From assembly GCA_947503115.1 (NCBI GenBank), contig CANNCS010000013.1, positions 1 through 52,423 of the forward strand: a DNA stretch of 52,423 nucleotides. Reading direction: 5' to 3'. A program made the position numbers and the translations under genes. Under the pieces are notes generated by a model, which did no database searches, was not told the DNA's origin, and worked only from the letters and a program-made list of their open reading frames with translations. Shown piece by piece: positions 1-13,824 of the stretch (its first letter is position 1; every line of letters starts with the position of its first letter). The DNA is from an uncultured Marivita sp. Lineage in GTDB: Bacteria > Pseudomonadota > Alphaproteobacteria > Rhodobacterales > Rhodobacteraceae.

Positions 1-122
1 TGTTCCGCCCAGAACCCGTCAGGATCGGACACCGAACGCGCATACATCTCTTCGTACCCAGCCGCATCAATATGGGCGTTCTCGACCATCTCTTTGGACG
101 GGGGATAGGTTGTGTCAGTCAT
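1..122 (-). CDS. acs: acetyl-CoA synthetase, N-terminal fragment
   Basis: Only the first 40 codons are present; the gene runs off the left edge. I translated it by hand from an ATG at 122-120, preceded by a strong AGGAGG ribosome site. The visible start, MTDTTYPPSKEMVENAHIDA followed by GYEEMYARSV and a DPDGFWAE segment, matches the N-terminal region of AMP-forming acetyl-CoA synthetases (the 'Y..MY..S..DP..FW' block). The enzyme activates acetate to acetyl-CoA in the cytoplasm. It lies downstream of, and on the same strand as, the ABC importer genes, separated from them by a terminator-like hairpin. Identification rests on about 40 residues, so a close relative such as propionyl-CoA synthetase is less likely but possible. 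Confidence 0.8.
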   Translation of the reverse strand, partial: MTDTTYPPSKEMVENAHIDAAGYEEMYARSVSDPDGFWAE

Positions 123-146
123 GGGGGTCCTCCTCTTTGGTCAAAC

Positions 147-181
147 AAAACCGCCCCCGCCGGGAAATGGCAAGGGCGGCA
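147..181 (-). terminator. terminator-like hairpin between importer operon and acs
   Basis: Read on the minus strand, a CCGCCC/GGGCGG stem is followed by a T-rich stretch (GGTTTTGTTTGA). This is the form of a Rho-independent terminator. It sits just after the last importer gene and just before the acs ribosome site, so it may end or attenuate read-through into acs. The loop is fairly long (about 17 nt), which lowers confidence. Confidence 0.45.
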
Positions 182-208
182 AAAGTCGCAGAAGGGCGAC
201 GGCCTTGC

Positions 209-964
209 TTAAATTGCGAGGTATTCCGCCCGAAGTTGGGCGTTTTCCAGAACCTCGGCCGCGGAACCGTCAAAAACGATGGACCCGGTGTCGAGAATAA
301 TCGCGCGGTCGGCCAGTTGCAGGGCACGCACGGCGTTCTGTTCAACAAGAATCGTCGTCATCCCCTGTTCCTTGATCACGCGCAGGGTCTTTTCGATCTC
401 GTCAACGATAACCGGAGCCAAACCTTCGTAAGGTTCGTCCAGCAGAAGCACTTTAATGTCACGCGCCAAAGCGCGGGCAATCGACAACATTTGCTGTTCG
501 CCGCCCGACAAGGTCACACCTTCCTGATTGCGGCGTTCGCCCAAGCGCGGGAAGAGATCGTAGAGACGCTCAATCGACCAACCGATCGGCGGCGCGATCT
601 GAGCGAGTTGCAGGTTTTCCTCGACCGTTAGGCCGGGGATGATGCACCGATCTTCCGGCACCAGGCCCAAACCGACCGAGGCTGCCTCGTAGGACGCCAT
701 CTTGTGGAGCGGCTGGTGATCCAGCCAAATCTCGCCATGGTTCACTTGCGGGCTGTCCATCCGCGCAATGGAGCGCAGAGTGGTTGTCTTTCCGGCACCG
801 TTGCGGCCTAGAAGTGCGAGGATTTCGCCTTCGTGGACGTTAAACGAGATGCCCTGCACGATATAGCTTTCGCCGTAGTAGGAGTGCATGTCCCAGACCG
901 ACAAAAAGGCGGGTGCCGTTTCTGCGCGGTTGGCGTTCTTTGAAAAATCGGGTCTGACGTTCAT
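209..964 (-). CDS. ABC transporter ATP-binding protein, LivF/UrtE type
   Basis: This is a 251-residue ABC ATPase of the branched-chain amino acid/amide (HAAT) class. Walker A (GRNGAGKT) lies at residues 53-60, the signature LSGGEQ at 152-157 and Walker B (VLLLDE) at 172-177. It lacks the insertions of other ABC classes and has the usual LivF length. It would sit on the cytoplasmic face and dimerise with the LivG-like partner encoded just upstream. It is the last gene of the importer operon. The 54-bp gap to the preceding gene carries a perfect GC hairpin. The substrate is not shown by the ATPase itself; the acs neighbour suggests a short-chain acid or a compound degraded to acetate. Confidence 0.9.
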   Translation of the reverse strand: MNVRPDFSKNANRAETAPAFLSVWDMHSYYGESYIVQGISFNVHEGEILALLGRNGAGKTTTLRSIARMDSPQVNHGEIWLDHQPLHKMASYEAASVGLGLVPEDRCIIPGLTVEENLQLAQIAPPIGWSIERLYDLFPRLGERRNQEGVTLSGGEQQMLSIARALARDIKVLLLDEPYEGLAPVIVDEIEKTLRVIKEQGMTTILVEQNAVRALQLADRAIILDTGSIVFDGSAAEVLENAQLRAEYLAI

Positions 965-990
965 GTATCTGTCCTCACGCTGGGAGGGGT

Positions 991-1009
991 GGCAGGGCAG
1001 AGCCCTGCC
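991..1009. other. perfect intercistronic hairpin
   Basis: GGCAGGGC at 991-998 and GCCCTGCC at 1002-1009 form an 8-bp perfect stem with a 3-nt loop between the two ATPase genes. No T tract follows on the minus strand, so it is more likely an mRNA stability or processing element than a terminator. Confidence 0.4.
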
Positions 1010-1018
1010 GATATGGGG

Positions 1019-1774
1019 TTACGCGGCTTCGCCGAGATAGGCTTCTTTGACCTTCGGGTGACCTTTGATATTTTCCGGCGTGTCCTCAACAAGAGGCGTG
1101 CCTTGGGCCAGAACCGTGATCCGATCAGCCAAGGAGAACACAACATGCATGTCGTGTTCGATGATCGCGATTGTGATGTCGCGCTTTTCCTTGATCTCTT
1201 TGAGCAGGTCGATGGTGTTGTTCGTGTCCGCCCGCGCCATACCTGCTGTCGGTTCGTCGAGCAGTAGAAGCTTGGGGTTCTGAACAAGGCACATCGCCAT
1301 TTCGAGACGGCGTTTGTCACCGCGCGACATCGATGCGGAATGCATATTCCGCTTGTCGAGCATGTTGACCTCATCGAGCATCTGTTCCGCCTGGTCTCGC
1401 AGTTCACCTTCGCTCAGGACTGACCGGATGCCGTGTAGAGCAAACGAACCGTCACGCCGGGCAAAGCACGGGATCAGCATGTTTTCCATAACGGTCAGAT
1501 CGCCAAAGATCTCTGGTGTTTGAAACACGCGGGAAATGCCCATCTGGTTGATTTCAAACGGGGTGCGGCCCAGTACGCTCTGTCCGTCGAACATCACCGA
1601 CCCGGTATCCGGGATCAGTTTGCCGACCAGACAGTTGAGCAGAGTGGATTTGCCCGCGCCGTTGGGTCCGATGATCGCGTGGCAGGTGTTTTCCGCCACG
1701 CTAAGGTTCACGTTGCCTAGCGCTTGCAGGCCACCGAACCGTTTGTTTACGTCTTTGACTTCGAGAATTCCCAT
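1019..1774 (-). CDS. ABC transporter ATP-binding protein, LivG/UrtD type
   Basis: This is a 251-residue ABC ATPase. Walker A (GPNGAGKS) lies at residues 36-43, and Walker B sits in the LLLLDEPTAGM segment. The signature motif is unusual: MSRGDKRRLE replaces the canonical LSGGQ type, which resembles the degenerate LSHGQK form of UrtD-like ATPases. It pairs with the LivF-type ATPase downstream. The permease gene livM lies 12 bp upstream, so the genes are clearly cotranscribed. The family moves branched-chain amino acids, urea, short amides and related small solutes. The sequence alone does not choose among these. Confidence 0.9.
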   Translation of the reverse strand: MGILEVKDVNKRFGGLQALGNVNLSVAENTCHAIIGPNGAGKSTLLNCLVGKLIPDTGSVMFDGQSVLGRTPFEINQMGISRVFQTPEIFGDLTVMENMLIPCFARRDGSFALHGIRSVLSEGELRDQAEQMLDEVNMLDKRNMHSASMSRGDKRRLEMAMCLVQNPKLLLLDEPTAGMARADTNNTIDLLKEIKEKRDITIAIIEHDMHVVFSLADRITVLAQGTPLVEDTPENIKGHPKVKEAYLGEAA

Positions 1775-1786
1775 CTGTCCGTCTCC

Positions 1787-2986
1787 TTATTCCGCAGGTT
1801 CGGTGGTTGCGTTCTCGGTTTTCTCGGCCTTTTTACGACCGAACATCGCAGCGATCTTCTGACCACCCTGAACAAGGCCACCGGGCAGGAAGATCACGAC
1901 CAGCATGAACACGATGCCCAGCGTGAGGTGCCAACCTTTACCGATGAACGGGTAGATCAGGGCGACGATCAGGTCTTCCAGACCGTCGGGGAGGAAGGCG
2001 AACCAGCTGTGCAGGATGTCCGAGTTGATCTTGGAAATGATGTTTTCCATGTACTTGATCAGACCAGCGCCCAGAACCGGGCCGATGAGCGTGCCGACAC
2101 CACCAAGGATGGTCATCAGAACGACTTCACCTGACGCTGTCCAGAACATACGTTCCGCACCAGCGAGAGGGTCCATCGACGCCATCAGGCCGCCAGCGAG
2201 GCCAGCATACATGCCCGAGATCACGAAGGCCGCCAGCGTGTAGGGCCGCGGGTTGAGGCCGGTATAGTTCAGGCGCTGCTGGTTCGATTTTACGGCCCGC
2301 AGCATCATGCCGAACGGCGAACGGAAGATACGGATCGACAGATAGAACGATGCCAGCATGATAATCGCGGCAAAATAATAGCCGACATTAAAGGTGAACA
2401 CCCAGCTGCCGAACACCAGTTCGGCGCTGTCACGCATTTCGAGGCCGAAGAAGCCAGGAACGGGGATGTTGCCATCTGCTGTTGTCGCGCTGCCAAAGAT
2501 GCGCGGATCGTCCAGCGCCAGTTGCAGACCGGTTTCACCACCAGTGATCGGGGTCAGAACCGAATATGCCAAGGCAAAGGACATCTGTGCGAAGGCCAGC
2601 GTCAGGATCGAGAAGTAGATGCCCGAGCGACGCAGGCTGACATAGCCGATGATAAGGGCGAACACACCAGCTGTCGCAACAGCAAGCACGATTGCCGGGA
2701 TGACGTTCATGCTGAGCAGCTTGAACATCCAGACCGCTGCATACGAGCCCACACCCAAGAAGGCGGCGTGACCAAAGCTAAGATAACCGGTCAAGCCAAA
2801 GAGGATGTTAAAGCCGATTGCGAAGATCCCGAAGATCACAAAGCGTTGCATCAGGTCGGGATAGCCCGCGTTGAACTGCGCCATCGCCGATCCTTCGGGG
2901 AACGGGTTGAGCAGAAACGGTGCGAAGGCGACCAAAGCTGCCACGATCAGCAGGAGGGATGCGTCTTTTTTGTCCAGTCCAAACAT
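1787..2986 (-). CDS. ABC transporter permease, LivM/UrtC type
   Basis: This 399-residue inner-membrane permease has about ten hydrophobic segments. It contains the LivM hallmark [18 protein letters not shown] near residue 70, and a cytoplasmic coupling region around [18 protein letters not shown]. It ends in a short charged tail ([17 protein letters not shown]). It forms the channel together with the LivH-type permease, whose stop codon lies 3 bp upstream of this start. The length is normal for LivM/UrtC. Confidence 0.9.
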
Positions 2987-2989
2987 GGA

Positions 2990-4021
2990 TCAGTCCTCCA
3001 TCACGCCTTTGCGACCCATAAGGCCACGCGGACGCGTCAGTAGAATTACAATGGCGACAAGGTAGATGATCACCTGGTTGATGCCGGGGATGATGGCGAT
3101 GACTTCGCGCATCGATGCAAAGCTTTCCAGAATACCCAGCAAGAAGCCTGCGAGCACAGCTCCTGGAAGCGAACCCATGCCTCCGACAACCACCACAACA
3201 AAGCTCAGGACCAAGAAGTCCATGCCCATGTGGTAGTTAGGCGAGTTGATCGGAGTGTACATCACGCCAGCAAGACCAGCGACCGCAGCGGCCAGACCGA
3301 ACATGATGGTGAATCGCTTGTCGATGTTGATGCCAAGCAGACCCACAGTTTCGCGGTCCGCCATGCCGGCGCGCACGACCATCCCGAAGGTGGTGAACTG
3401 CAAGAAAGCAAACACGGCGCCGATGATCAAAGCCGCAAAGGCAAAGTAGACCAGTCGCCAGTAAGGGTAGATGATCGTTCTGGGTTCGAAACCCACAAGC
3501 GCGCCAAAGTCGAATGACCCAACAAAGGCAGACGGTGCCGGGGTTGGGATCGGGTTGGCGCCGTAATAGTACTTGATGACTTCTTGCAGGACGATAGCCA
3601 GGCCAAAAGTCACAAGGATCTGGTCAGCATGCGGGCGCTTGTAGAAGTGCTTGATCAGCCCGCGCTCCATGATCACACCGATCAGGATCATCACTGGGAT
3701 GGCGAACAGGATCGACAAAGGCACTGCCCAGTCGATGATTCCAGCGCCAAGGCTTTCGCCAAAAAGGTCGTAGATATATGGCACATCGCGCATTTGCGGA
3801 TTGCCAAGGAAGTCGACGGCTCCGGGAACCTCGACTTTGTGGCTCAGGCTGAGCAGGCGGGATAGGGTGACGGCGCAGAACGCACCGATCATGAACAGAG
3901 CACCGTGTGCGAAGTTCACCACGCCCAGCGTGCCGAAGATGAGTGTTAGGCCAAGCGCGATCAGCGCGTAGGCCGAGCCCTTGTCGAGCCCGTTGAGAAT
4001 TTGCAGGATTATGGCGTCCAT
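2990..4021 (-). CDS. ABC transporter permease, LivH/UrtB type
   Basis: This inner-membrane permease is 343 residues long from the chosen ATG at 4021. The start reads MDAIILQILNGLDKGSAYAL, the usual LivH beginning, and is preceded by GGGTGGGG. A longer in-frame start 18 codons upstream adds residues unlike the family. The LivH motif LTLIFGTLGVVNFAHGALFM is clear near residue 27. The protein partners with the LivM-type permease. Two strong hairpins lie between this gene and the binding-protein gene upstream, suggesting lower expression of the membrane components than of the binding protein. Confidence 0.88.
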   Translation of the reverse strand: MDAIILQILNGLDKGSAYALIALGLTLIFGTLGVVNFAHGALFMIGAFCAVTLSRLLSLSHKVEVPGAVDFLGNPQMRDVPYIYDLFGESLGAGIIDWAVPLSILFAIPVMILIGVIMERGLIKHFYKRPHADQILVTFGLAIVLQEVIKYYYGANPIPTPAPSAFVGSFDFGALVGFEPRTIIYPYWRLVYFAFAALIIGAVFAFLQFTTFGMVVRAGMADRETVGLLGINIDKRFTIMFGLAAAVAGLAGVMYTPINSPNYHMGMDFLVLSFVVVVVGGMGSLPGAVLAGFLLGILESFASMREVIAIIPGINQVIIYLVAIVILLTRPRGLMGRKGVMED

Positions 4022-4059
4022 TGCCCCACCCTTTGCGGTCAGAAGTGTGGAAGTGCAGA

Positions 4060-4116
4060 CAGCCCGTAACAGCAACGGGCTGGAGAAGAGATGAGGCGGG
4101 CCGGGGGGCCCACCTC
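4060..4116 (-). promoter_or_regulatory. two intercistronic hairpins after the binding-protein gene
   Basis: Hairpin 1 (first met by minus-strand transcription) spans 4093-4116: GAGG, one mismatch, then GGGCC paired with GGCCC across a GGGG loop, then CCTC. Hairpin 2 spans 4060-4082: CAGCCCGT and ACGGGCTG around a 7-nt loop. Neither has a T tract. Such structures after periplasmic binding-protein genes commonly protect the upstream mRNA or attenuate transcription, giving excess binding protein. That role is inferred here. Confidence 0.5.
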
Positions 4117-4129
4117 AAGAAACAAGGGC

Positions 4130-5476
4130 TTATGCGCCGTTGTTACAGGTGCCGAGCGATCCGCCAGCAACCTGCGGGTGATCCGGGGCATAAGTAACCT
4201 GCTCAACCGGTGTGACTTCCACGATTTCGAGGAGGTCGAACTCGGAGGAGGGGTTCTCTTTACCCTTCACAACCAGAACGTCTTTGAAGCACTGGTGGTC
4301 TTCTGCGCGATACAGCGTCTTGCCGTTGCCCATGCCGTCGAACTCGAAGCCTTCGAGCGCTTCGACAACTGCACAAGGTGCGAACGAACCTGCACGCTGA
4401 ACGGCGTCTGCGTAGAGCAGGGCCTGAACGTAGCAAGTGTGCGCAGCCTGCGACGGCGGGAAGCCGTACTTGGTGCCGAAGGACTGAACGAATGCCTTGG
4501 AGCCTTCGTCCTGCAGCGACCAGTGCCAGTTTGTCGAACCGAAGATGCCCTTAACGTTGGCACCAGCACCCTTCGCCATGAGGCGCGAGTAGAGTGGAAC
4601 AACGATTTCGAACTGCTTGCCGTTCACAATACGATCACGCAGACCGAACTGAACCGCGTTGGTCAGCGAGTTCACCATGTTGCCGCCGTAGTGGTTCAGA
4701 ACCAGCACGTCTGCGTCGGACTGCAGAACCGGCGTGATGTAGGACGAGAAGTCGGTCTGTGTCAGCGGTGTCAGAACCGAGCCAACAGTTTCCCAACCCA
4801 TCGCTTCGGTCGAGGACTTCACCGCTTCTTCAGTGGTGTAACCCCAGTTGTAGTCGGCGGTCAGGTGGTATGCCTTACGGTCGGTGCCGTAGTTAGCTGC
4901 AAGCACCGGAGCCAGCGCCGCGCCGGACATGTACGAGTTGAAGAAGTGGCGGAAACCGTTGGCCCGCTTGTCTTTACCCGTGGTGTCGTTGGAGTGCGTG
5001 AGGCCCGCCATGAAGATGACGCCAGCTTCCTGACAGAGCGCCTGAACGGCAACCGCCACACCCGAGGACGAACCGCCCGTGATCATCACGGCGCCGTCTT
5101 TTTCGATCATCGACTTAGCCGAGGCGCGCGCTGCGTCCGACTTCGTCTGTGTGTCACCCGTGACGTACTCGACTTTTTTGCCAAGAATACCGGTGCCGTC
5201 CAACGCCTTCGAAGAGAAGGTGTTCAGCATGCCGCCGTCGCCTTCACCATTCAGGTGTTCGACAGCCAATTCGTAGGCGCGGAGTTCATCTGCACCCTCG
5301 TCTGCGTAGGGACCGGACTGGGGTACGTTGAAACCCAGTGTGACGGTCGATCCTGTCGGTGCGTTCGTAAAGCCTTCATGGCCGGCTGCCGACAGATATG
5401 TGGGCAGAGCGAGACCCGCACCTGCTACAGCACCTGTCTTGAGCACGCCGCGACGTGTCAGGTTGCCTTTGGACAT
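4130..5476 (-). CDS. HAAT-family ABC substrate-binding protein with Tat signal
   Basis: This is a 448-residue periplasmic binding protein. The N-terminus has a twin-arginine signal (LTRRGVLKTGAVAGAG), so it is probably exported folded through Tat. The mature part begins near FTNAPTGSTVTLGF and has the type I fold of Leu/Ile/Val- and urea-type receptors (GPYADEGADELRAYELAVEHLN; GGSSSGVAVAVQALCQEAGVIFM). It is somewhat longer than LivJ (about 370) and near the UrtA/AmiC size class. A GGGAGGA ribosome site precedes the ATG. It is the first gene of the importer operon, divergent from the ScfR regulator. Ligand identity cannot be read from the sequence. The acs/ScfR context makes a short-chain carboxylate, amide or similar acetate-yielding compound plausible. 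Confidence 0.88.
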   Translation of the reverse strand: MSKGNLTRRGVLKTGAVAGAGLALPTYLSAAGHEGFTNAPTGSTVTLGFNVPQSGPYADEGADELRAYELAVEHLNGEGDGGMLNTFSSKALDGTGILGKKVEYVTGDTQTKSDAARASAKSMIEKDGAVMITGGSSSGVAVAVQALCQEAGVIFMAGLTHSNDTTGKDKRANGFRHFFNSYMSGAALAPVLAANYGTDRKAYHLTADYNWGYTTEEAVKSSTEAMGWETVGSVLTPLTQTDFSSYITPVLQSDADVLVLNHYGGNMVNSLTNAVQFGLRDRIVNGKQFEIVVPLYSRLMAKGAGANVKGIFGSTNWHWSLQDEGSKAFVQSFGTKYGFPPSQAAHTCYVQALLYADAVQRAGSFAPCAVVEALEGFEFDGMGNGKTLYRAEDHQCFKDVLVVKGKENPSSEFDLLEIVEVTPVEQVTYAPDHPQVAGGSLGTCNNGA

Positions 5477-5602
5477 ATAATCCTCCCAATGTCTTTAAGG
5501 GTCTGGCGGCGTTCCTCCATCCGCCAGCACCGCACATATGTGCAAATTGATTATCGGCTATGCATGGAAAACATAGCAATAAGCGCTTTGCCTCAAACGC
5601 TT

Positions 5603-5668
5603 TTTCTGTCAAAAAATGAACAGCGCAATGCAGAAAGCTGTAAATTAATTTTTTCTGCAGTGCAGAAA
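5603..5668. promoter_or_regulatory. putative ScfR operator: repeated TGCAGAAA half-sites
   Basis: A perfect inverted repeat TTTCTGCA-G-TGCAGAAA occupies 5652-5668. A further TGCAGAAA lies at 5629-5636, and a partial TTTCTG at 5603-5608. The two TGCAGAAA copies start 32 bp apart, about three helical turns, so they lie on one face of the DNA. The cluster is in the divergent promoter between the binding-protein gene and the ScfR gene, immediately upstream of the latter. The likely ligand is that regulator, acting on itself and the importer. This is inferred from position and symmetry. Confidence 0.55.
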
Positions 5669-5695
5669 CTGGTTGATTCATCACAGGAATTTGAG

Positions 5696-7012
5696 ATGCC
5701 CCGCGACACTCTGACAGGAAGCCGTATTCGCGAACGGCGTGTGATGGCCGGGTTGAAGCAGTCCGAATTGGCCAAACGTGCCGAAATCTCACCGTCCTAC
5801 CTGAACCTGATCGAACACAATCGGCGCAGAATCGGCGGGAAGTTGCTGGTCAATATTGCATACGCGCTGGGTGTCGAACCGGGGTCGTTGACCGAAGGCG
5901 CCGAGACCACGCTGCTGGCCACATTGCGCGAGGCGGCAAGTGACGTCGATATGACCGAAGCCGAGTTTGTTCGGGTCGAGGAATTCGCTGGCCGGTTCCC
6001 CAGCTGGGCCGCGCTTTTGGCTGACAGTCAACGTAAGGTCGAAACACTTCAGCGCAGTGTTGAAACATTGACCGACCGTTTGACTCATGACCCGCATCTG
6101 GCGACGTCACTGCACGAAATGCTGTCGACTGTGACCGCGATCCGTTCGGCTGCGTCAATCCTTGCAGAGCCCGGCGATATCGAACCCGAGTGGCAACGCC
6201 GCTTTAATCGCAACATCTACGAAGATAGTGCCCGCCTTGCGGATACGAGCCGTAGCTTGGTGCAATATCTCGAAGAGGCCGATTCCGAGGCATCTGAAAC
6301 GAATGCGCCACAAGACGAACTCGATAGCGTGTTCCAAAGACATGGATTTCATGTTCCGGCATTGGAAGCCTCAAAAGCCGATGTTGATGCTGTGACTGCG
6401 GAACTGGGGCAGGGGCTCTCGCAAGCCGCGCGATGGCTCTTGCATCGGGCGATCTTGCGATATCGCGCGGATGCTGAACGGATGCCGTTGGGCGACTGTG
6501 CTGACACGGTGGCTGTGTCCGGAAATGATCCTTTTGCTCTCGCCGCGCGGTTCGGGTGTGATCTGGCCAGTGCCATGCGCCGGCTGGCGCATCTGCCGGA
6601 AGACATTTTGCCCGACCCTGTGGGCTTGGCGATATGCGATGGTTCCGGTGTGACGACTTTCCGCAAGCCGCTGCCGGAATTTCCTTTGCCTCGGCTCGGG
6701 GCGGGCTGTGCGCTCTGGCCGTTGTACCGGGCGCTGGCTCGACCGATGATGGTGCATGTCGAAGTGATGGAGCAATCCGCCCGCGCGGCGGCACGTCACC
6801 GTGGCTACGCAATTTCACAACCCACCGGACCCGCCCGTCCCGGCGAGGATGTTCTGTTCGAAAGCCATATGCTGATTGTGCCAGAATCCAAGCGCGACGA
6901 TTCCGAAGAGATCCGCCATGTCGGGCTGACTTGCCGGATTTGCCCACATCCGACCTGCGAGGCGCGACGTGAGCCGTCGATCATGGTCGCCTCGGCACCG
7001 CGGAAGCTTTGA
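5696..7012 (+). CDS. ScfR-family (short-chain acyl-CoA responsive) XRE regulator
   Basis: This is a 438-residue cytoplasmic regulator starting at ATG 5696 (AGGAATTTGAG precedes it). The open frame extends far upstream, but that part is antisense to the binding-protein gene. An XRE helix-turn-helix lies at about residues 8-62 (RIRERRVMAGLKQSELAKRA, then SYLNLIEHNRRRIGG). The middle is helical with no visible zinc-protease motif. The C-terminus ends in a cysteine cluster C413-x2-C416-x4-C421 (CRICPHPTC) typical of the ScfR C-terminal domain. Family members such as RamB and PccR control acetate or propionate assimilation. Next to acs and the importer, regulation of that module is the natural inference. 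The second ScfR in the window (28314-29720) has the same cysteine spacing. Confidence 0.82.
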   Translation: MPRDTLTGSRIRERRVMAGLKQSELAKRAEISPSYLNLIEHNRRRIGGKLLVNIAYALGVEPGSLTEGAETTLLATLREAASDVDMTEAEFVRVEEFAGRFPSWAALLADSQRKVETLQRSVETLTDRLTHDPHLATSLHEMLSTVTAIRSAASILAEPGDIEPEWQRRFNRNIYEDSARLADTSRSLVQYLEEADSEASETNAPQDELDSVFQRHGFHVPALEASKADVDAVTAELGQGLSQAARWLLHRAILRYRADAERMPLGDCADTVAVSGNDPFALAARFGCDLASAMRRLAHLPEDILPDPVGLAICDGSGVTTFRKPLPEFPLPRLGAGCALWPLYRALARPMMVHVEVMEQSARAAARHRGYAISQPTGPARPGEDVLFESHMLIVPESKRDDSEEIRHVGLTCRICPHPTCEARREPSIMVASAPRKL

Positions 7013-7104
7013 CACATTGCCTGCTCTCCGTAATAGTTTAAGCAAGCTGGCCAAAAATAACGGCAAAAAGCCGATCAGCTACTTGCGGCACGGGGAGGGC
7101 GCGC

Positions 7105-7473
7105 ATGTCAAAACAGGTTCTGTTGATTGAAGACGAACCCAATATCATTGAGGCGATCAGTTTCATCCTGTCTCGGGATGGATGGACGGTCAAAACCCAC
7201 TCTAATGGGGCAGATGCTGTCGAAATGGTAAAGGAGAGGCGACCTGACGTGGTTATCCTCGATGTGATGCTGCCGGGAAAAAGCGGCTACGACATCCTGC
7301 GCGAATTGCGCGACGACCCCGAGGTTGAAGGATTGCCGGTTCTTATCCTGACTGCGCGGGGTCAGACCAAAGATCGTGAAATCGCGGAACGTGCTGGCTG
7401 CGACGCCTTCATGACCAAACCGTTCTCGAATGCGGATGTGCTCGAAACCGTGAGAGCCTTAGCCGCTAAATGA
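7105..7473 (+). CDS. single-domain CheY-like response regulator
   Basis: This 122-residue protein consists only of a receiver domain. The acidic pocket E9-D10-E11, phosphoacceptor D53 (VVILDVMLPGKSG), T83 and K105 (FMTKPF) are all present, so it should be phosphorylatable. It has no DNA-binding or enzymatic output domain. A GGGGAGGG ribosome site precedes the start. Its stop overlaps the next start (ATGA), and the next gene but one is a histidine kinase, the likely phosphodonor. The output could be through protein contact, for instance with the SpoA-domain protein encoded at 10490-11551. That link is inference. Confidence 0.9.
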   Translation: MSKQVLLIEDEPNIIEAISFILSRDGWTVKTHSNGADAVEMVKERRPDVVILDVMLPGKSGYDILRELRDDPEVEGLPVLILTARGQTKDREIAERAGCDAFMTKPFSNADVLETVRALAAK

Positions 7474-7751
7474 TACGCGCGACGGACAGGCCCGGATCGC
7501 CGACTGTCTTTCATGAAAGACGCACCTACCGCAGACGCCGTGTCATGGATGCTGCGCGGGTTACTCCGATCCTTGCGCTGATCCTCTGGAGTCTGCCGTT
7601 GATCTGGCCGCAATCAGGGGAAGGCACCGTCAGTAGTGCCATTGCCTTGATTTATATCTTTGCGGTCTGGAGCGGGGTGATCCTTTTGACGTGGGGCTTG
7701 TCACGCCAGCTGGCCAATGAAATGGACGAGCCGCCGGATTCCGAGCCATGA
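7470..7751 (+). CDS. small two-helix membrane protein of unknown function
   Basis: This 93-residue protein has an Arg-rich cytoplasmic N-terminus (HERRTYRRRRVMD), two hydrophobic segments (about residues 32-45 and 58-78) and an acidic tail (NEMDEPPDSEP). The start ATG overlaps the CheY-like stop, and its own stop overlaps the kinase start (ATGA at both ends). It is therefore translationally coupled in a three-gene set. A shorter start at the Met near residue 26 is possible. It may be an accessory subunit of the SLC5-type kinase, by position only. Confidence 0.7.
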   Translation: MIRATDRPGSPTVFHERRTYRRRRVMDAARVTPILALILWSLPLIWPQSGEGTVSSAIALIYIFAVWSGVILLTWGLSRQLANEMDEPPDSEP

Positions 7752-10435
7752 GCACGCTCAACCTGTTGATTGCGGTCTGTACGGCCTATGTGTTTTTCCT
7801 GTTCTTCGTGGCCTTTGCGGCCGACCGGCTGGCGCTTCAAGGCAAAAAGGCATGGTTGCGATCGCCACTGATCTACACTCTGTCGCTGTCGATCTATTGC
7901 ACGGCCTGGACGTTCTACGGTGCGGTCGGATCGGCCGCGCGCAACGGGTTCGAATACCTGACGATCTATCTCGGGCCGACCTTGGTCATGGTCAGTTGGT
8001 GGTGGCTCCTGCGCAAATTGATCCGTATCGGGCGGACGCAAAAAATCACTTCCATCGCTGACCTGATCTCGTCCCGTTATGGCAAATCAAGCCTTTTGGC
8101 CGCAGGTGTGACAATCCTCGCGGTGATTGGCACCACACCCTACATTGCTTTGCAATTGCAGTCCGTGACCTTGTCCTTTTCCGTTTTCGCAGCTCAATCC
8201 GATGGTCTGGCGCCACAGGACCAGGCACGTTTGGGGTTGTGGTTGTCGATGGGCCTGGCGGTGTTCACGGTGCTGTTTGGCACACGCAACCTCGACGCGA
8301 AGGAAAGGCATGACGGCGTGGTCATGGCCATCGCGGTTGAGGCCGTGGTCAAGCTGGTCGCGTTGCTTTCGGTCGGCATTTTCGTGGTCTGGGGGGGGGC
8401 GGGCGGATTGACCGAAGCGCTAAATCGGATCGACGCATCAGAATTCGGAGAATGGCACACCGACCGCAGCCGCTGGGCCGGGTTGATCTTTCTGTCGGCG
8501 GCGGCGTTCCTGTGTTTGCCCCGCACCTTTCAGGTGCTGGTTGTTGAAAACGACGACGAAAGCCACCTGCGGACCGCAAGCTGGGCATTTCCGCTCTATC
8601 TCTGCTTGATCAGTCTGTTTGTCGTGCCCATTGCAATGGTGGGGCTCGATATCATGCCCGAGGGGTCCAATCCCGACCTTTTCGTGCTGACGGTTCCGCT
8701 TGCGCTGGGCGAAAACGGGTTGGCGATGCTGTCTTTCCTTGGCGGGTTCAGTTCGGCCACGTCGATGGTGATCGTCGCGGCCATTGCGTTGTCGACCATG
8801 GTGTCGAACCACATCGTGATGCCGATCTGGCTACAATTGCGCCCAAGCGGAGCCAGCGTGTCAGGTGACGTTCGGGCGGCAGTTCTGATGGCGCGGCGCA
8901 TTTCCATCGTTGGCGTGGTGATGCTGGGATATCTGTATTTCCGGCTGTCCAGTGGCGGCGAGGCGCTGGCCTCTATCGGCTTGGTTGCGTTTTGCGGGCT
9001 AGCTCAGGTTTTGCCTGCGATGCTGGGCGGCATGTTTTGGCGCGGCGCCACACGGATGGGGGCGTTTGCCGGGCTGACTGCTGGGTTTGCGACTTGGCTT
9101 TATACCCTTTACCTGCCCAGCTTTGGTGTCGGAACAATCCTGCCTATGGCGATCATCGACAACGGGTTGTTCGGGTTGGAATGGCTCAAGCCGGACGCCC
9201 TGTTCGGAATCTCTGGCCTCGATCAACTCATGCACGCACTGTTTTGGAGCATGTTGTTTAACGTTGTGGCCTTTGTAACGGTATCTCTTGTCACCTTCCC
9301 GTCTCCGCTGGAACGGTTGCAAGCGGCTCAGTTCGTCAACATTTTCGAGCATTCGACAAATGCCCGCAGCTGGTCTGGTGGAACGGCGCAAACTGAAGAC
9401 CTGATGGTGATGGCGCAGCGCATTCTGGGCGCAGCCGAGGCGCAAAAGTTGTTTCTGCGCCACGCACGACGTCAAGGCGCACGCGGGGATTTACCAGCCC
9501 CCACGCCTGACTTCCTTGAGTCTTTAGAGCGCGAATTGGGCAGCTCTGTGGGCGCGGCGACCGCCCACGCGATGGTGGGGCAGATCACTGGGGGCATGGC
9601 GATTTCGGTCGAAGACCTGATGGCGGTGGCCGACGAAACGGCTCAGATGCTGGAATACTCGGCGCGGCTCAAGGAACAGTCAGAAGTACTTAGCCGCACC
9701 GCGCTGGAGCTGCGCAATGCGAACCAGAAGCTCACCCGCCTGTCGATCCAGAAAGACGCGTTTCTTAGCCAAATCAGCCACGAATTGCGCACGCCTATGA
9801 CGTCGATCCGGGCATTTTCTGAGATCCTGCGCGACACCGACCAGATGAACTCGGACGACCAATCGCGCTATGCGTCGATCATCCACGATGAAGCGCAGCG
9901 CCTGACGCGGTTGCTTGATGATTTGCTTGATTTGAGCGTGGTCGAGAACGGGCAGGTGAATCTGAACATGCGGGAAGGCACGCTGCGCGACGCGTTGGAT
10001 CGGGCGGTTTCGTCTGCTGCCATCGGCGAAGACGGGGCTCAGCTAAAAATCGAACGCGATTCCGCCAAGGAAGAGATTCTCTTGCACACCGATCTTGACC
10101 GACTGAGCCAAGTGTTCATCAACTTAATCGCCAATGCGCGCAAATATTGCGACGCCGCAGAGCCGCACCTTGTCATTCGCGTGATGCAAGAGGTTGACCG
10201 CGTGGTCATTGATTTCCACGACAACGGATCGGGCATCGCCCCTGAGGCCGTGGATATGATCTTTGAAAAATTTGCTCGTGTCAGTGATCAAAAGGCAGGC
10301 GGGGCGGGTCTTGGCCTTGCCATTTGCCGTCAAGTGATGACGCGACTTGGCGGCTCTGTGGATTATGTGCCGGCGTCACGCGGTGCAAATTTCCGCGTGG
10401 TACTGCCTTACAGCACGGCAATGGCCGCGCAATAA
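7748..10435 (+). CDS. SLC5 symporter-STAC-histidine kinase fusion (CrbS/CbrA-like)
   Basis: This is an 895-residue inner-membrane sensor. Residues about 1-520 form a sodium/solute symporter (SSS/SLC5) module with some 13 hydrophobic segments. About 525-645 correspond to the STAC linker region (QFVNIFEHS to VEDLMAVADETAQMLEYSARL). A coiled segment leads to the HisKA box SHELRTPMTSIRAFSEIL with H678. The ATPase domain follows, with the N-box (NLIANARKYC), G1 (DNGSGI) and G2 (GAGLGLAICRQ). I see no PAS domain and no attached receiver. CrbS relatives sense or transport small carboxylates and control acs in other proteobacteria, which fits the nearby acs. The likely partner is the CheY-like protein two genes upstream. 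Confidence 0.88.
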   Translation: MSTLNLLIAVCTAYVFFLFFVAFAADRLALQGKKAWLRSPLIYTLSLSIYCTAWTFYGAVGSAARNGFEYLTIYLGPTLVMVSWWWLLRKLIRIGRTQKITSIADLISSRYGKSSLLAAGVTILAVIGTTPYIALQLQSVTLSFSVFAAQSDGLAPQDQARLGLWLSMGLAVFTVLFGTRNLDAKERHDGVVMAIAVEAVVKLVALLSVGIFVVWGGAGGLTEALNRIDASEFGEWHTDRSRWAGLIFLSAAAFLCLPRTFQVLVVENDDESHLRTASWAFPLYLCLISLFVVPIAMVGLDIMPEGSNPDLFVLTVPLALGENGLAMLSFLGGFSSATSMVIVAAIALSTMVSNHIVMPIWLQLRPSGASVSGDVRAAVLMARRISIVGVVMLGYLYFRLSSGGEALASIGLVAFCGLAQVLPAMLGGMFWRGATRMGAFAGLTAGFATWLYTLYLPSFGVGTILPMAIIDNGLFGLEWLKPDALFGISGLDQLMHALFWSMLFNVVAFVTVSLVTFPSPLERLQAAQFVNIFEHSTNARSWSGGTAQTEDLMVMAQRILGAAEAQKLFLRHARRQGARGDLPAPTPDFLESLERELGSSVGAATAHAMVGQITGGMAISVEDLMAVADETAQMLEYSARLKEQSEVLSRTALELRNANQKLTRLSIQKDAFLSQISHELRTPMTSIRAFSEILRDTDQMNSDDQSRYASIIHDEAQRLTRLLDDLLDLSVVENGQVNLNMREGTLRDALDRAVSSAAIGEDGAQLKIERDSAKEEILLHTDLDRLSQVFINLIANARKYCDAAEPHLVIRVMQEVDRVVIDFHDNGSGIAPEAVDMIFEKFARVSDQKAGGAGLGLAICRQVMTRLGGSVDYVPASRGANFRVVLPYSTAMAAQ

Positions 10436-10489
10436 AATCATCTGAGCGGTTTTGATAAACCCTTGGTAACCAATTCCGGTGATAACCGG

Positions 10490-11551
10490 ATGAAAGGCCA
10501 AGGGGACAGCTGCGCTGACATGAAAGATGACGCCTCAGAAACCGTATTGCAGCGTAAAGTGGCCGCCCAACGCAGGACGTTGGGGGCGGGCGCGTGGTCG
10601 CTGTCGCGAGCTCTGGGGCGGGTGTTGTCAATTGCGGCGGATGCGCTTTGGGGGCTGACGCTGGTGGCGCGAACGTCAAATGATGAAACACTGTCGGCGG
10701 ATCGCGCGACCCGTCACCTAGGCGCGGACCGTTTGTTGGTGATCCTCGAACATGACACCGGACCGCCCGGTTTGGTGGCGTTTGATCGGGACATCGTGAC
10801 TGGCTTGATCGATGTGCAGACGCTTGGCCGCGTGACGCGATTTCCCAGTGGCGATCGTGCCTACACACCGACAGACGCGGCCATGACGGCCCCCTTGATT
10901 GACGCCGCTTTGCCTCGATTTTCTTCTATGCTGTCGTCGCAAACTGATATGGCGCATCTGCAAAATTACCGATTTGGCGCCTTGGTCGAAGACGAACAGG
11001 CGGCCAGTCTGGCTCTAGATGCTGATTCCTATCACCTCGCGGTGTTCGACGTCAGCCTTGCTCAGGACACGCGAAGCGGTGGTATTCTGTTTCTGTTCCC
11101 CGAACCTCATAAGGCGGCAGAACAGGGCACGACGGCGTTGCCCGGCAAACACGAAACTGTGCTCAAATTGGCGCCTGTGCGGATGCAAGCCGTGTTGTCT
11201 CGCATTCACATCTCGTTGGACCGCGCACAGGCTTTGCGGCCGGGTGACGTTTTGACGATCTCATCAAGGGCAACTTCCTCTGCGACCTTGATTCTTTCAG
11301 GCGGTGATGTGGTGGCGAAGGGGACGCTGGGGCAGATGAACGGCTTTCGAGCTATCCGTATTGGAACAGGTGAACCGCCGCTGCACAAACCCGAAGACCG
11401 CAAGCCACAGGCGGAAGCACCTACTGCGACAGTCTCACTTGTGCCTGTTGCGACGCAGGCGCCAGAGCTTGGTTATGGGGGATCACTTGACATGCAGCTT
11501 GATGATCTGGCCACCGGTCTCCCGGCGGCACCTGATCCGATCGACGTTTAA
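10490..11551 (+). CDS. orphan FliM/FliN-type (SpoA) domain protein
   Basis: This protein has 353 residues from ATG 10490, which has a GGTGA site 7 nt upstream. An ATG at 10520 and an upstream TTG at 10463 are alternatives. Residues about 1-215 are not recognised; they include LARTSNDETLSADRATRHLG-like helical sequence and a FliM-like mid-region feel (LLVILEHDTGPPGLVAFDRDIVTGLIDVQ). Residues about 225-292 are a SpoA domain: VRMQAVLSRIHISLDRAQAL, RPGDVLTI, SSATLILSGGDVVAKGTLGQ and a closing FRAIRI. The tail is Pro/Ala-rich. In flagellar motors this domain builds the C-ring that CheY-P binds through FliM. No flagellar genes are nearby, and the canonical CheY-binding N-terminal FliM motif is not visible. 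It could be a moonlighting motor part or an adaptor for the adjacent receiver. Confidence 0.68.
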   Translation: MKGQGDSCADMKDDASETVLQRKVAAQRRTLGAGAWSLSRALGRVLSIAADALWGLTLVARTSNDETLSADRATRHLGADRLLVILEHDTGPPGLVAFDRDIVTGLIDVQTLGRVTRFPSGDRAYTPTDAAMTAPLIDAALPRFSSMLSSQTDMAHLQNYRFGALVEDEQAASLALDADSYHLAVFDVSLAQDTRSGGILFLFPEPHKAAEQGTTALPGKHETVLKLAPVRMQAVLSRIHISLDRAQALRPGDVLTISSRATSSATLILSGGDVVAKGTLGQMNGFRAIRIGTGEPPLHKPEDRKPQAEAPTATVSLVPVATQAPELGYGGSLDMQLDDLATGLPAAPDPIDV

Positions 11552-11979
11552 CGCTGTGCGCCTGCTGCCGCCTCAAGTGTGGAGCGCAGCATAGACAGGT
11601 CGTAGCCTGCTTGTGCAACTGCGCCGAGAATTTCGTCGGCGCTTTTCTGACCCGCCTGGCTAAGCGCCCATAGGATCGAACAGCGCGTACCCGATGCGCA
11701 GTAGGCCAAAACAGGCCCGTCGGATGCGTCAACCAACGCGGCTTGTTGCGCCACACGGTCTGGGGTCATGGTCTGGTGCGTGATCGGAAGCACCTCGAAC
11801 TTCAGTCCTGCCGCCTCGATCGCGACGCGCATAGCGTCGGATTGATGCGATGGCGGAACTTCGGCATCCGGGCGGTTGCAGACCACCGTGGTGATCCCCG
11901 CCGCCTTGATGGCGGCGGCGTCTTGCGGGTCGATCTGTGGCGACACGGCGTAGCGGTCAGAGATTGGTCGTATATCCAT
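11548..11979 (-). CDS. TIGR01244-type sulfur transferase / DSP-like phosphatase domain protein
   Basis: This 143-residue protein starts at ATG 11979 (a TTG two codons upstream is less likely). It carries a PTP-like active-site loop YCASGTRC, with nucleophile Cys and the Cx5R arginine. Its overall pattern (DIRPISDRYAVSPQIDPQD, VVCNRPDAEVPPSHQ) matches the TIGR01244/Blh N-terminal family found fused to, or beside, persulfide dioxygenases. It is the last gene of the persulfide operon, 9 bp after the second YedE gene. Its stop overlaps the convergent SpoA gene stop by 4 bp. A role in sulfur transfer or persulfide handling is inferred from the operon. Confidence 0.82.
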   Translation of the reverse strand: MDIRPISDRYAVSPQIDPQDAAAIKAAGITTVVCNRPDAEVPPSHQSDAMRVAIEAAGLKFEVLPITHQTMTPDRVAQQAALVDASDGPVLAYCASGTRCSILWALSQAGQKSADEILGAVAQAGYDLSMLRSTLEAAAGAQR

Positions 11980-11988
11980 GGCCAAGAC

Positions 11989-12423
11989 CTACTGCGCCGC
12001 CGCGGGCCTGTCCAGCCATGCCCGCAGGCTTGGCATAGCGCTCATTCCGGCGACCATTGCGGCAAGGAACACAAGACCCTCGACCCCGCCATAGCTGAGC
12101 GATGCAATCGCCGGACCGGGGCACAGGCCAACCAGACCCCAACCCATCCCGAACAGAACCGACCCCATGACAAGGTTGCGGCCCAATTTCGGTTCAGGCG
12201 GTGGCGGCATGGCATCACCGGTTAGGGCAAAGCGCCGCTTTGCGGCAACTCGCCACGCAATCGCCATCGGGATAATCGCGCCGCCCATTACAAAGGCGAG
12301 CGTCGGATCCCAATTGCCAAAGATATCAAGCCAGCCTTGCACCTTACGGGTGTCAGTCATGCCGGAAATGAACAGTCCGGCCCCAAACAGACCACCTGCC
12401 AAAAAAGCGAAATAGTTGCGCAT
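11989..12423 (-). CDS. YeeE/YedE-family sulfur transport protein, half B
   Basis: This 144-residue membrane protein starts at ATG 12423 (MRNYFAFLAGGLFGAGLFIS) with about four hydrophobic segments. The GLCPGPA motif provides the conserved cysteine of the DUF395/YeeE family. Its ATG overlaps the stop of the first half (ATGA). TsuA-like thiosulfate transporters are single long proteins, whereas here two half-size proteins probably assemble together, as in PmpA/PmpB pairs. The substrate is probably a reduced sulfur species. The longer open frame running to 12837 is antisense-type extension over the partner gene and not used. Confidence 0.85.
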   Translation of the reverse strand: MRNYFAFLAGGLFGAGLFISGMTDTRKVQGWLDIFGNWDPTLAFVMGGAIIPMAIAWRVAAKRRFALTGDAMPPPPEPKLGRNLVMGSVLFGMGWGLVGLCPGPAIASLSYGGVEGLVFLAAMVAGMSAMPSLRAWLDRPAAAQ

Positions 12424-12848
12424 CAGATGATCCCCAGCAAATGGCGGAACAGAACCACGGTCAGACCGCCCGCAAGAATGTAGAAGACCGTCGCGACCAT
12501 GCCGCGCAGCGACAAACGGGAAATCCCGCAGACGCCGTGGCCCGAGGTGCATCCATTGGCCAATCGCGTACCGACGCCGACCAGCAGGCCCGCCGCGATG
12601 AGAAGGACAAAGTTGCTGGTGACATGGGTTTCTTTCGGTCCAAGGAAGAACAACAAGACGACAGGGATTGATACCAACCCTGCCAGAAAGCTGATGCGCT
12701 CCCACATCGTGCTGCGCCCGCTGCCATCGACAAGCCCGCCGATGATACCGCTCGCGCCCATGATGCGCCCATTGGCGAGCAGGTATACTGCGCCGCCTGT
12801 GCCGATCAGCATTCCGCCGACCAATCCGTAAATCCAATCCGGGTTCAT
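12423..12848 (-). CDS. YeeE/YedE-family sulfur transport protein, half A
   Basis: This 141-residue membrane protein (MNPDWIYGLVGGMLIGTGGA) carries the family's conserved cysteine motif NGCTSGHGVCG around residue 100 and has about four hydrophobic segments. It is encoded 4 bp after the persulfide dioxygenase stop and overlaps its partner's start. Together the two halves give the GxCTSGHG and GxCPGP cysteines thought to relay thiosulfate or persulfide sulfur through the membrane. Alternative names for such pairs include PmpA/PmpB. Confidence 0.86.
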   Translation of the reverse strand: MNPDWIYGLVGGMLIGTGGAVYLLANGRIMGASGIIGGLVDGSGRSTMWERISFLAGLVSIPVVLLFFLGPKETHVTSNFVLLIAAGLLVGVGTRLANGCTSGHGVCGISRLSLRGMVATVFYILAGGLTVVLFRHLLGII

Positions 12849-12852
12849 TTCT

Positions 12853-13716
12853 TTACAATCCGTTTACTGGAACCTTGAGGAAAACCTTGCCGTCCTCGTC
12901 CGCGGGCGGCATTTGCCCGGCGCGCATGTTCACTTGCAGCGACGGGATAATCAGTTTTGGCATCGCCAGCGTCGCGTCACGCGCATTGCGCATTTCGACA
13001 AAGCTGTCTTTGGTGGCATCGCCGCCGACATGCACGTTCTTGGCCTTTTGTTCGCCGACGGTGGTCTCCCACGCATAGTCGTCGCGGCCCGGTGCCTTGT
13101 AGTCATGCCCCACGAAGATGCGGGTCTCGTCGGCCAGGGCGAGGATTTTTTGAACCGAGTCGTACAACAACTCGGACGAGCCCCCCGGAAAGTCGCAGCG
13201 CGCCGTCCCGAAATCCGGCATGAAAAGCGTATCGCCGACAAACGCAGCGTCGCCAATCACATAGGTCAGACAGGCCGGAGTGTGGCCTGGCGTATGCAGT
13301 ACATCCGCGCGCATCTGGCCGATGTGAAAGCTGTCGCCTTCGACAAAAAGCTTGTCGAACTGGCTGCCATCGCGCTGAAATTCGGTGCCTTCGTTGAAGA
13401 CTTTGCCGAACGTGTCCTGCACGACCTGAATGCGGTCACCAATCCCGATCTTGCCGCCAAGCGCATCTTGCAGATAGGGCGCGGCGCTTAGGTGATCGGC
13501 GTGGACATGGCTTTCCAAAAGCCACTGAACCTCAAGACCGTTTTCCTTCACGAATGCGATTACCGCATCGGCGGATTTCGTGTCTGTGCGGCCCGAAGAA
13601 TAGTCGAAATCCAAAACGCTATCGACAATCGCGCAGGCGCTGCCTTGCGGGTCCTGAACCACGTAAGAAATGGTGTTGGTGGCGTCGTCAAAAAAACCTG
13701 TGACCTTGGGTGTCAT
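12853..13716 (-). CDS. MBL-fold persulfide dioxygenase (ETHE1/Blh type)
   Basis: This 287-residue enzyme starts at ATG 13716, chosen for the AGGAGGG site 8 nt upstream; a longer frame starts 32 codons earlier. The metal site is clear: HVHADHLSAA (HxHxDH) near residue 68, HTPGHTPAC, and GDTLFMPDFGTARCDFPGGS with the bridging Asp. Mononuclear-iron ETHE1/Blh proteins oxidise glutathione persulfide to sulfite in the cytoplasm. It heads an operon with two YedE halves and a TIGR01244 protein, the typical BigR/SqrR regulon set. No ArsR-type regulator or sulfide:quinone oxidoreductase is encoded in the window. Confidence 0.9.
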   Translation of the reverse strand: MTPKVTGFFDDATNTISYVVQDPQGSACAIVDSVLDFDYSSGRTDTKSADAVIAFVKENGLEVQWLLESHVHADHLSAAPYLQDALGGKIGIGDRIQVVQDTFGKVFNEGTEFQRDGSQFDKLFVEGDSFHIGQMRADVLHTPGHTPACLTYVIGDAAFVGDTLFMPDFGTARCDFPGGSSELLYDSVQKILALADETRIFVGHDYKAPGRDDYAWETTVGEQKAKNVHVGGDATKDSFVEMRNARDATLAMPKLIIPSLQVNMRAGQMPPADEDGKVFLKVPVNGL

Positions 13717-13733
13717 ATCTGAGCCCTCCTTGA

Positions 13734-13761
13734 TTGAATAACATATAAAGAAATTTGAATA
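13734..13761. promoter_or_regulatory. possible operator: TTGAATA repeats 21 bp apart
   Basis: TTGAATA occurs at 13734-13740 and again at 13755-13761, exactly 21 bp (two helical turns) apart. Both lie in the AT-rich leader just upstream of the persulfide dioxygenase start. The GAAT core resembles half of the ATTC/GAAT-type sites described for SqrR, but here the repeats are direct rather than inverted. This could be promoter sequence or a persulfide-responsive repressor site. Confidence 0.35.
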
Positions 13762-13824
13762 CGTAGCAAGGGGGTGCCTCAAAAAAAGTGTACGGCACAC
13801 ATAGGTTTTCATGTCTCCCCCGGA

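Follow-up and report, generated by a model that had tools for sequence, protein, structure and literature searches.

A conserved kinase–receiver–ScfR block in the Rhodobacteraceae, probably a short-chain-acid module, with a native fliM, probably relocated, behind it

The window analysed here is a whole 52,423-nt stretch from an uncultured Marivita sp. (contig CANNCS010000013.1, GCA_947503115.1, forward strand), and its first 11,551 bases hold a block that we read as two units at one locus: an ancient short-chain-acid module, the acid most likely being acetate, and a relocated fliM gene. We put the probability of this reading, which is drawn from sequence comparisons, at about 0.78. In the first unit, an SLC5-type kinase and its small membrane partner would sense (or carry) the acid and phosphorylate a stand-alone receiver, and an ScfR regulator that probably carries an Fe-S cluster would read acyl-CoA and act on the divergent promoter that serves the importer and acs. 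In the second unit, fliM, the switch gene of the native flagellar C-ring, would have moved out of the flagellar cluster in an ancestor shared by most of the family, a single event being the simplest assumption, and landed behind the kinase gene, where it would be expressed from its own upstream box. Both the kinase–receiver module and the location of FliM are directly testable in model roseobacters.

Table 1. Features of the block at positions 1–11551 of the window
Feature	Position	Strand	Basis
acs 5' end, first 40 codons, cut by contig end	1..122	-	translation and match to relatives' Acs frames
HAAT importer ATPase (LivF/UrtE-like)	209..964	-	
HAAT importer ATPase (LivG/UrtD-like)	1019..1774	-	
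HAAT permease (LivM/UrtC-like)	1787..2986	-	
HAAT permease (LivH/UrtB-like)	2990..4021	-	
Substrate-binding protein (Peripla_BP_6), weak Tat-signal match	4130..5476	-	
Divergent region, binding protein / ScfR; TTTCTGCA-N-TGCAGAAA inverted repeat inside	5477..5695	.	
ScfR/RamB-type regulator, HTH and Cys C338, C413, C416, C421	5696..7012	+	PF09856, HTH_3
Stand-alone receiver (single-domain response regulator)	7105..7473	+	PF00072
Small hydrophobic protein, gene joined to those of receiver and kinase by ATGA overlaps	7470..7751	+	
SLC5-type sensor histidine kinase; HisKA 669-734, HATPase 782-888	7748..10435	+	
Box before fliM, consensus TAAAGnnnTTGGTAACCAAnT	10454..10475	+	GTAACC enrichment in relatives
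fliM, native Rhodobacterales type; SpoA domain 225-291 of printed frame	10490..11551	+	PF01052, profiles, structures

An earlier note on this DNA had placed acs, a full HAAT importer, an ScfR regulator, a single receiver, a small membrane protein, an SLC5-type kinase and an orphan SpoA protein in one block. From the importer (five genes, 209-5476, minus strand) to the SpoA protein, all of these are present as described (Table 1), with the corrections that acs amounts to 40 codons, that the SLC5 part of the kinase is divergent and that the SpoA protein is FliM and no orphan. The window starts at base 1 of its contig (C13 of a 4.5-Mb draft genome), and for this reason it holds only the beginning of acs. 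The 40 encoded residues match the Acs frames of relatives with E values of 2e-15 to 4e-13 (seven rows listed), and in the one relative scanned the gene after the importer is an acetate--CoA ligase, above the TIGR02188 cut-off. No gene in the window's assembly scores above the AcsA cut-off. Pieces encoding 33 C-terminal residues of Acs are found at C72:1-102 and C66:25271-25372; acs is broken in the assembly across C13, C66 and C72, which may reflect a collapsed repeat or two acs copies. Among 44 assessable loci (of 45, window included), acs follows the importer in 28, five of them, including the window, being cut by an end, and is missing in 16. We note that four loci lacking it there (L064, L068, L069 and L108) show weak AMP-ligase matches on the opposite strand. 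A literature search for the substrate of the HAAT importer gave no usable lead.

We sampled 149 genomes, one per genus of the Rhodobacteraceae, and counted a kinase homologue where the match exceeded 500 bits. This gave 133 genomes, and the surroundings of all 133 kinase genes were compared (for G000, those in the window itself); smaller denominators arise because the remaining loci are cut by contig or stretch ends. The receiver and the small membrane protein lie directly 5' of the kinase in 130 of 131 assessable loci, ScfR lies upstream in 124 of 131 and is lacking in seven, the divergent binding protein is present in 93 of 123 and missing in 30, and FliM lies directly 3' of the kinase in 104 of 127. 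Because this order recurs across genera, it is beyond chance. More than 120 genera keep kinase, receiver, small protein and ScfR together, which bears out the proposal that acs, importer, ScfR, receiver and SLC5 kinase form a conserved unit. Parts of the block reach other orders and phyla, so the gene order is not confined to close relatives, the condition that the earlier note had named as refuting its proposal. Judged by these comparisons, the block is a widely conserved set of neighbours and a new combination of known parts.

The kinase consists of an SLC5-like transmembrane domain fused to HisKA/HATPase. The Pfam SSF family finds no match in the window kinase and matches only 3 of 15 aligned members; the solved histidine-kinase fragment PDB 10ed matches kinase residues 4-467 (E 4e-71), and the kinase family profile matches the same structure over residues 4-613 (E 1e-99). 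The receiver is 122 aa long and, with the acidic pocket, Asp, Thr and Lys kept among the 130 loci, has a complete phosphorylation site; its closest receiver likeness is to the PhoB/PleD type. ATGA overlaps join the receiver, small-protein and kinase genes, and no Pfam family scores above cut-off in the small hydrophobic protein. Known SLC5-type kinases control acetate use (CrbS), carbon/nitrogen balance (CbrA) or a pyruvate symporter (RpuS). CbrB is a DNA-binding regulator, whereas the window receiver carries no output domain, and the acs/importer neighbourhood also sets the window apart from CbrA/CbrB. CbrA of Pseudomonas is an SLC5-type kinase without a terminal receiver (PMC5436829), and CbrX is a two-helix small gene before CbrA, overlapping and translationally coupled (PMC6591292); the window kinase likewise lacks a terminal receiver and is preceded by an overlapping small gene. 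The likeness to the CrbS/CrbR system lies in the SLC5-type kinase; CrbS controls acs, and the kinase here is linked to acs by gene order. As a hybrid kinase, CrbS also carries PAS and receiver domains (PMC5436829), whereas neither is called in the window kinase and its receiver is separate. AcsR, the homologue of CrbR, belongs to the LuxR type of regulators (PMC4409781), and no CrbR-like LuxR-type DNA-binding partner was found at the locus.

The window ScfR contains an HTH, the ScfR C-terminal domain and all putative Fe-S cysteines, with C338, C413, C416 and C421 kept in 98-100% of aligned relatives (121-124 rows). It shares this architecture with RamB and PccR, and the Paracoccus RamB is an Fe-S cluster protein that binds CoA esters (PMC10370305). 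The match of the window ScfR to a RamB model is weak and below cut-off; the literature searched, in the parts available, yielded no experimental study of the window's ScfR subgroup. Pden_1785, a further ScfR-like gene of P. denitrificans, lies beside a two-component system and was not pursued in the available part of that paper (PMC10370305). It is plausible that the block has two inputs, one outside through the kinase and one inside, acyl-CoA, through ScfR with its four conserved cysteines. The sequence TTTACAAA occurs in 55 of 91 divergent binding-protein/ScfR regions of relatives, against 1.0 after mononucleotide shuffling. The window's own divergent region holds no perfect copy, and we therefore claim no TTTACAAA site in the window ScfR promoter, although the enrichment in relatives is strong.

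The pairing of kinase and receiver extends beyond the family. A kinase-alignment scan gave at least 587 loci, of which the best 80 were used; 34 of those 80 are assigned by title to other groups. Among these 34, a single-domain receiver lies within 3 kb of the kinase in 32, ScfR is found in nine, a binding protein in eight and an Acs-type ligase within the fetched stretch in 11, and SpoA is found in none of the fetched stretches. The importer, ScfR, receiver and kinase occur together in Thalassospira, Pseudaminobacter and several alphaproteobacterial MAGs. In seven of the nine Bacteroidota-titled loci among the same best 80, kinase, receiver and Acs-type ligase stand in a row, without importer or ScfR (e.g., Anditalea, Hymenobacter, Flavobacterium and Spirosoma). 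Because kinase and receiver recur in 32 of the 34 outside loci and in Bacteroidota are often followed by acs, a module for acetate or another short-chain acid is plausible; the acid ligand of the kinase we infer from the acs linkage only. In all 33 receiver-bearing outside loci among the best 80 of at least 587, the receiver ends 1-16 residues past its domain with no fused output domain, which makes contact with another protein likely. The pairing of such a kinase with a separate receiver, frequently next to acs, spans alphaproteobacteria to Bacteroidota, and no description of it was found in the literature searched. Among the proteobacterial loci scanned, an RNase-T exonuclease sits beside the kinase–receiver pair in three (L193, L196, with PAS, and L216) and a CBS-DUF294 protein in two (L202 and L209), a recurring set.

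Sequence comparisons, among them matches to solved structures, identify the SpoA protein, used as query P0005, as FliM, which belongs to the C-ring of the native flagellum. Its PF01052 domain scores above cut-off and is matched in 42 of 42 aligned members; the only other PF01052 protein of the genome is a 126-aa FliN-like frame. P0005 finds a match in 118 of the 149 family genomes, 104 of the 118 being among the 120 FlgI genomes, and two weak matches (G058, 1e-4; G130, 5e-4) were both confirmed by profile. When 34 genomes, including 31 that P0005 had not matched, were searched with a profile, a FliM homologue emerged in ten further flagellated genomes. In nine of these ten the homologue starts 5.8-6.7 kb from flgI, and its placing in the flagellar cluster is by this distance, the intervening genes not being annotated; in G146 it is on another contig. 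In total, 119 of the 120 flgI genomes have a FliM-type protein (104 by P0005, 10 by profile and five as another FliM near FliN only), and none was found in G053. In G093 the profile also gives another match at a different place, weaker than the first.

The profile aligns with the ten FliMs, nine of them near flgI, over the full length (E 8e-30, 291 columns), and hhalign against 12 other FliMs is collinear (probability 98.2, E 6e-14, 243 columns), with columns that include R..T.TD versus T..FT.TE. The best solved-structure matches are FliM and FliM/FliN, within the SpoA part. In the single P0005 sequence the FliM middle domain has no Pfam call and scores -2.6 bits against solved FliM; the predicted model has a mean pLDDT of 79 and a pTM of 0.58. 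In a 56-protein tree, whose 33 rows labelled kinase-linked include six kinase-less genomes, the kinase-linked FliMs nest among the ten profile-found ones and are split from other FliMs with mixed support (49 and 97). Frames in alignments A4 and A5 were untrimmed, and G050 and G144 were not in alignment A1. SctQ, of the type III secretion ring, was also considered and rejected because of location and tree; P0005 scores weaker with it than with FliM, with a slightly stronger SctQ score in one of two relatives scanned. Location, profiles, tree and matches to solved structures together replace the orphan of the earlier note with FliM. Its companion idea, that the SpoA protein is the receiver's dedicated output, fails in that form because FliM without kinase and kinase without FliM both occur and because fliM has its own upstream box; of that earlier interpretation, the conserved acs/importer/ScfR/receiver/kinase unit is what stands.

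By full-length match and tree, this is the native Rhodobacterales FliM, that is, the protein of fla1 in the 2025 survey and of Fla2 in C. sphaeroides. Cereibacter sphaeroides 2.4.1 (G051, plasmid match) has four PF01052 matches, which we assigned by elimination to FliM1, FliN1, FliN2 and the kinase-linked gene. The gene RSP6099 we take to be the fla2 FliM; a literature search with this tag found nothing. A separate location of the native FliM is already published: fla2 fliM is placed on chromosome I, away from the cluster, and comes on with CtrA (PMC7277832), the FliM of D. shibae has a separate location and is induced with the flagellar genes (PMC6473078), and that of Roseibacterium is also separate (PMC4149021). 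New, as far as the available parts of the literature searched go, are its place in the kinase–receiver–ScfR block, the proposed move and the unusual N-terminus. FliM beside a metabolic sensor is now located in about a hundred genera. The 2025 survey gives fliG and fliN but no fliM among the P. inhibens motility genes, and the available part of this large survey of the commonest Rhodobacterales flagellum makes no mention of the FliM located here (PMC12363192).

The simplest history, as read from the trees, would be that fliM moved once, long ago, from the flagellar cluster to behind the kinase. When the kinase tree is rooted by hand on G023, its 13 deepest branches show no FliM at the locus (contig ends cut two of them); the other 120 loci have FliM in 104 and none in 12, with four cut. 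In seven genomes of the family, FliM and FlgI are present and no kinase was found. The FliM of G130 groups with the FliMs near flgI, so G130 may never have had the kinase-linked gene. The spacing from the kinase gene to fliM is 54 bases, or 84 if fliM begins at base 10520, the codon for Met11 of the printed frame, which from comparison with relatives is probably the true start. GTAACC precedes fliM on the same strand in 55 of 104 relatives and on the other strand in 2, against 2.5 in mononucleotide shuffles, and the box TAAAGnnnTTGGTAACCAAnT loosely resembles spaced CtrA half-sites. Its only other exact copy in the genome lies inside a coding frame. We tried it as a general flagellar (CtrA) box and rejected this, since the best scores at 16 fliG loci plus fliN are at most 12.6 versus at least 21.8 in the training sites; neither at fliG nor at fliN was the box seen. 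The box may serve fliM itself, perhaps under CtrA. Counting against the account of fliM given here are its retention in genera without flagella, considered below, the mixed support for the split between native and other FliMs, the absence of the box at fliG and fliN, and the Phaeobacter motility screen, whose Table 1 has no fliM hit (PMC12363192).

The position of fliM behind a kinase raises the idea that the phosphorylated receiver docks directly on the unusual N-terminus of its neighbour, so that an acid sensor drives the motor and the acid alters swimming without chemoreceptors. If true, this would mean receptor-free acetate taxis in most Rhodobacteraceae; we regard such docking, and metabolic control of the motor by it, as improbable. 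The N-terminal CheY-P docking motif of FliM is of the EIDALL type. A motif of the E(I/V)xAL type is found in 0 of 104 kinase-linked FliMs and 0 of 10 profile-found FliMs (mostly near flgI), against 8 of 12 other FliMs, so that FliMs of this type lack it as a group, and 97 of the 104 have an LxRK-like start (a control stretch of these proteins gives 23 of 104), which together with the adjacency in 104 of 127 loci and the complete phosphorylation site of the lone receiver favours the idea. However, the LxRK-like start is shared by 8 of 10 FliMs near flgI and therefore predates the move. Receiver and kinase occur without FliM in the 34 outside loci (from the best 80 of at least 587) and in the deep branches, and the seven flagellated genomes noted above have FliM with no kinase found. 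No receiver–FliM coevolution is seen by distance correlation over 98 taxa (without G050 and G065): given the kinase, it is -0.08 for receiver–FliM versus 0.40 for ScfR–FliM and 0.18 for the small protein. Moreover, the receiver is most like the PhoB/PleD type, and CheY1, CheY2 and CheY5 are reported to serve the fla2 flagellum of C. sphaeroides (PMC7277832).

There is a real, if smaller, chance that the module serves another acid or solute (e.g., a C3-C4 acid or an amino acid), with acs only a frequent neighbour. The varied roles of CrbS, CbrA and RpuS fit this, as does the lack of acs beside the importer in 16 of 44 loci; the latter, the missing binding protein (30/123) and the missing ScfR (7/131) also count against the short-chain-acid module as a whole. 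What speaks for acetate is the Acs-type ligase directly after kinase and receiver in 7 of 9 Bacteroidota-titled loci (among the best 80 of at least 587), in rows that have neither importer nor ScfR. A different question is posed by genera without flagella. Of 29 genomes without FlgI, we set aside six with FlhA (G028, G030, G054, G069, G076 and G113) and G033, which has neither FlgI nor FlhA, is 74% complete and has FliM and FliN side by side. Eleven of the remaining 22 genera, all without FlgI, FlhA and FliN, keep FliM at the locus, where a flagellar-only role needs none. A second, flagellum-independent role of FliM and FliG could explain this and is in our view unlikely. It would fit that all 11 keepers have FliG and none of the other 11 has either gene, that ten of the 11 FliM frames are open (the one in G144 has a stop), and that these genera are scattered on the kinase tree, apart from the sister pair G117 and G129 (support 0.99), which may share one flagellar loss. 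But CheA too is left in 8 of 11 versus 0 of 11, as expected after one cluster deletion, and in genera without flagella the terminal branches of FliM, taken relative to the kinase, are somewhat longer (median 4.5 versus 3.5, p 0.026), with no difference in mean FliM distances (p 0.21; both 10 versus 19 taxa). The joint retention of FliM, FliG and CheA means that when the flagellar cluster is lost, genes located elsewhere persist as a group, and leftover genes explain the pattern best.

Two of the 11 keepers of FliM and FliG, G055 and G141, are single-contig genomes. At 13 of 15 fetched loci, not counting the window's genome, FliG lies near a purB-like gene, so named from a reading of that gene's start. 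Beside fliM, many relatives have a DSP-like protein, two YeeE/YedE-like proteins and an MBL-fold hydrolase (window 11548-13812, minus strand), names that come from the look of the sequence and not from a family search; the same set of neighbours is also seen at L100 and partly at L099, both without the kinase.
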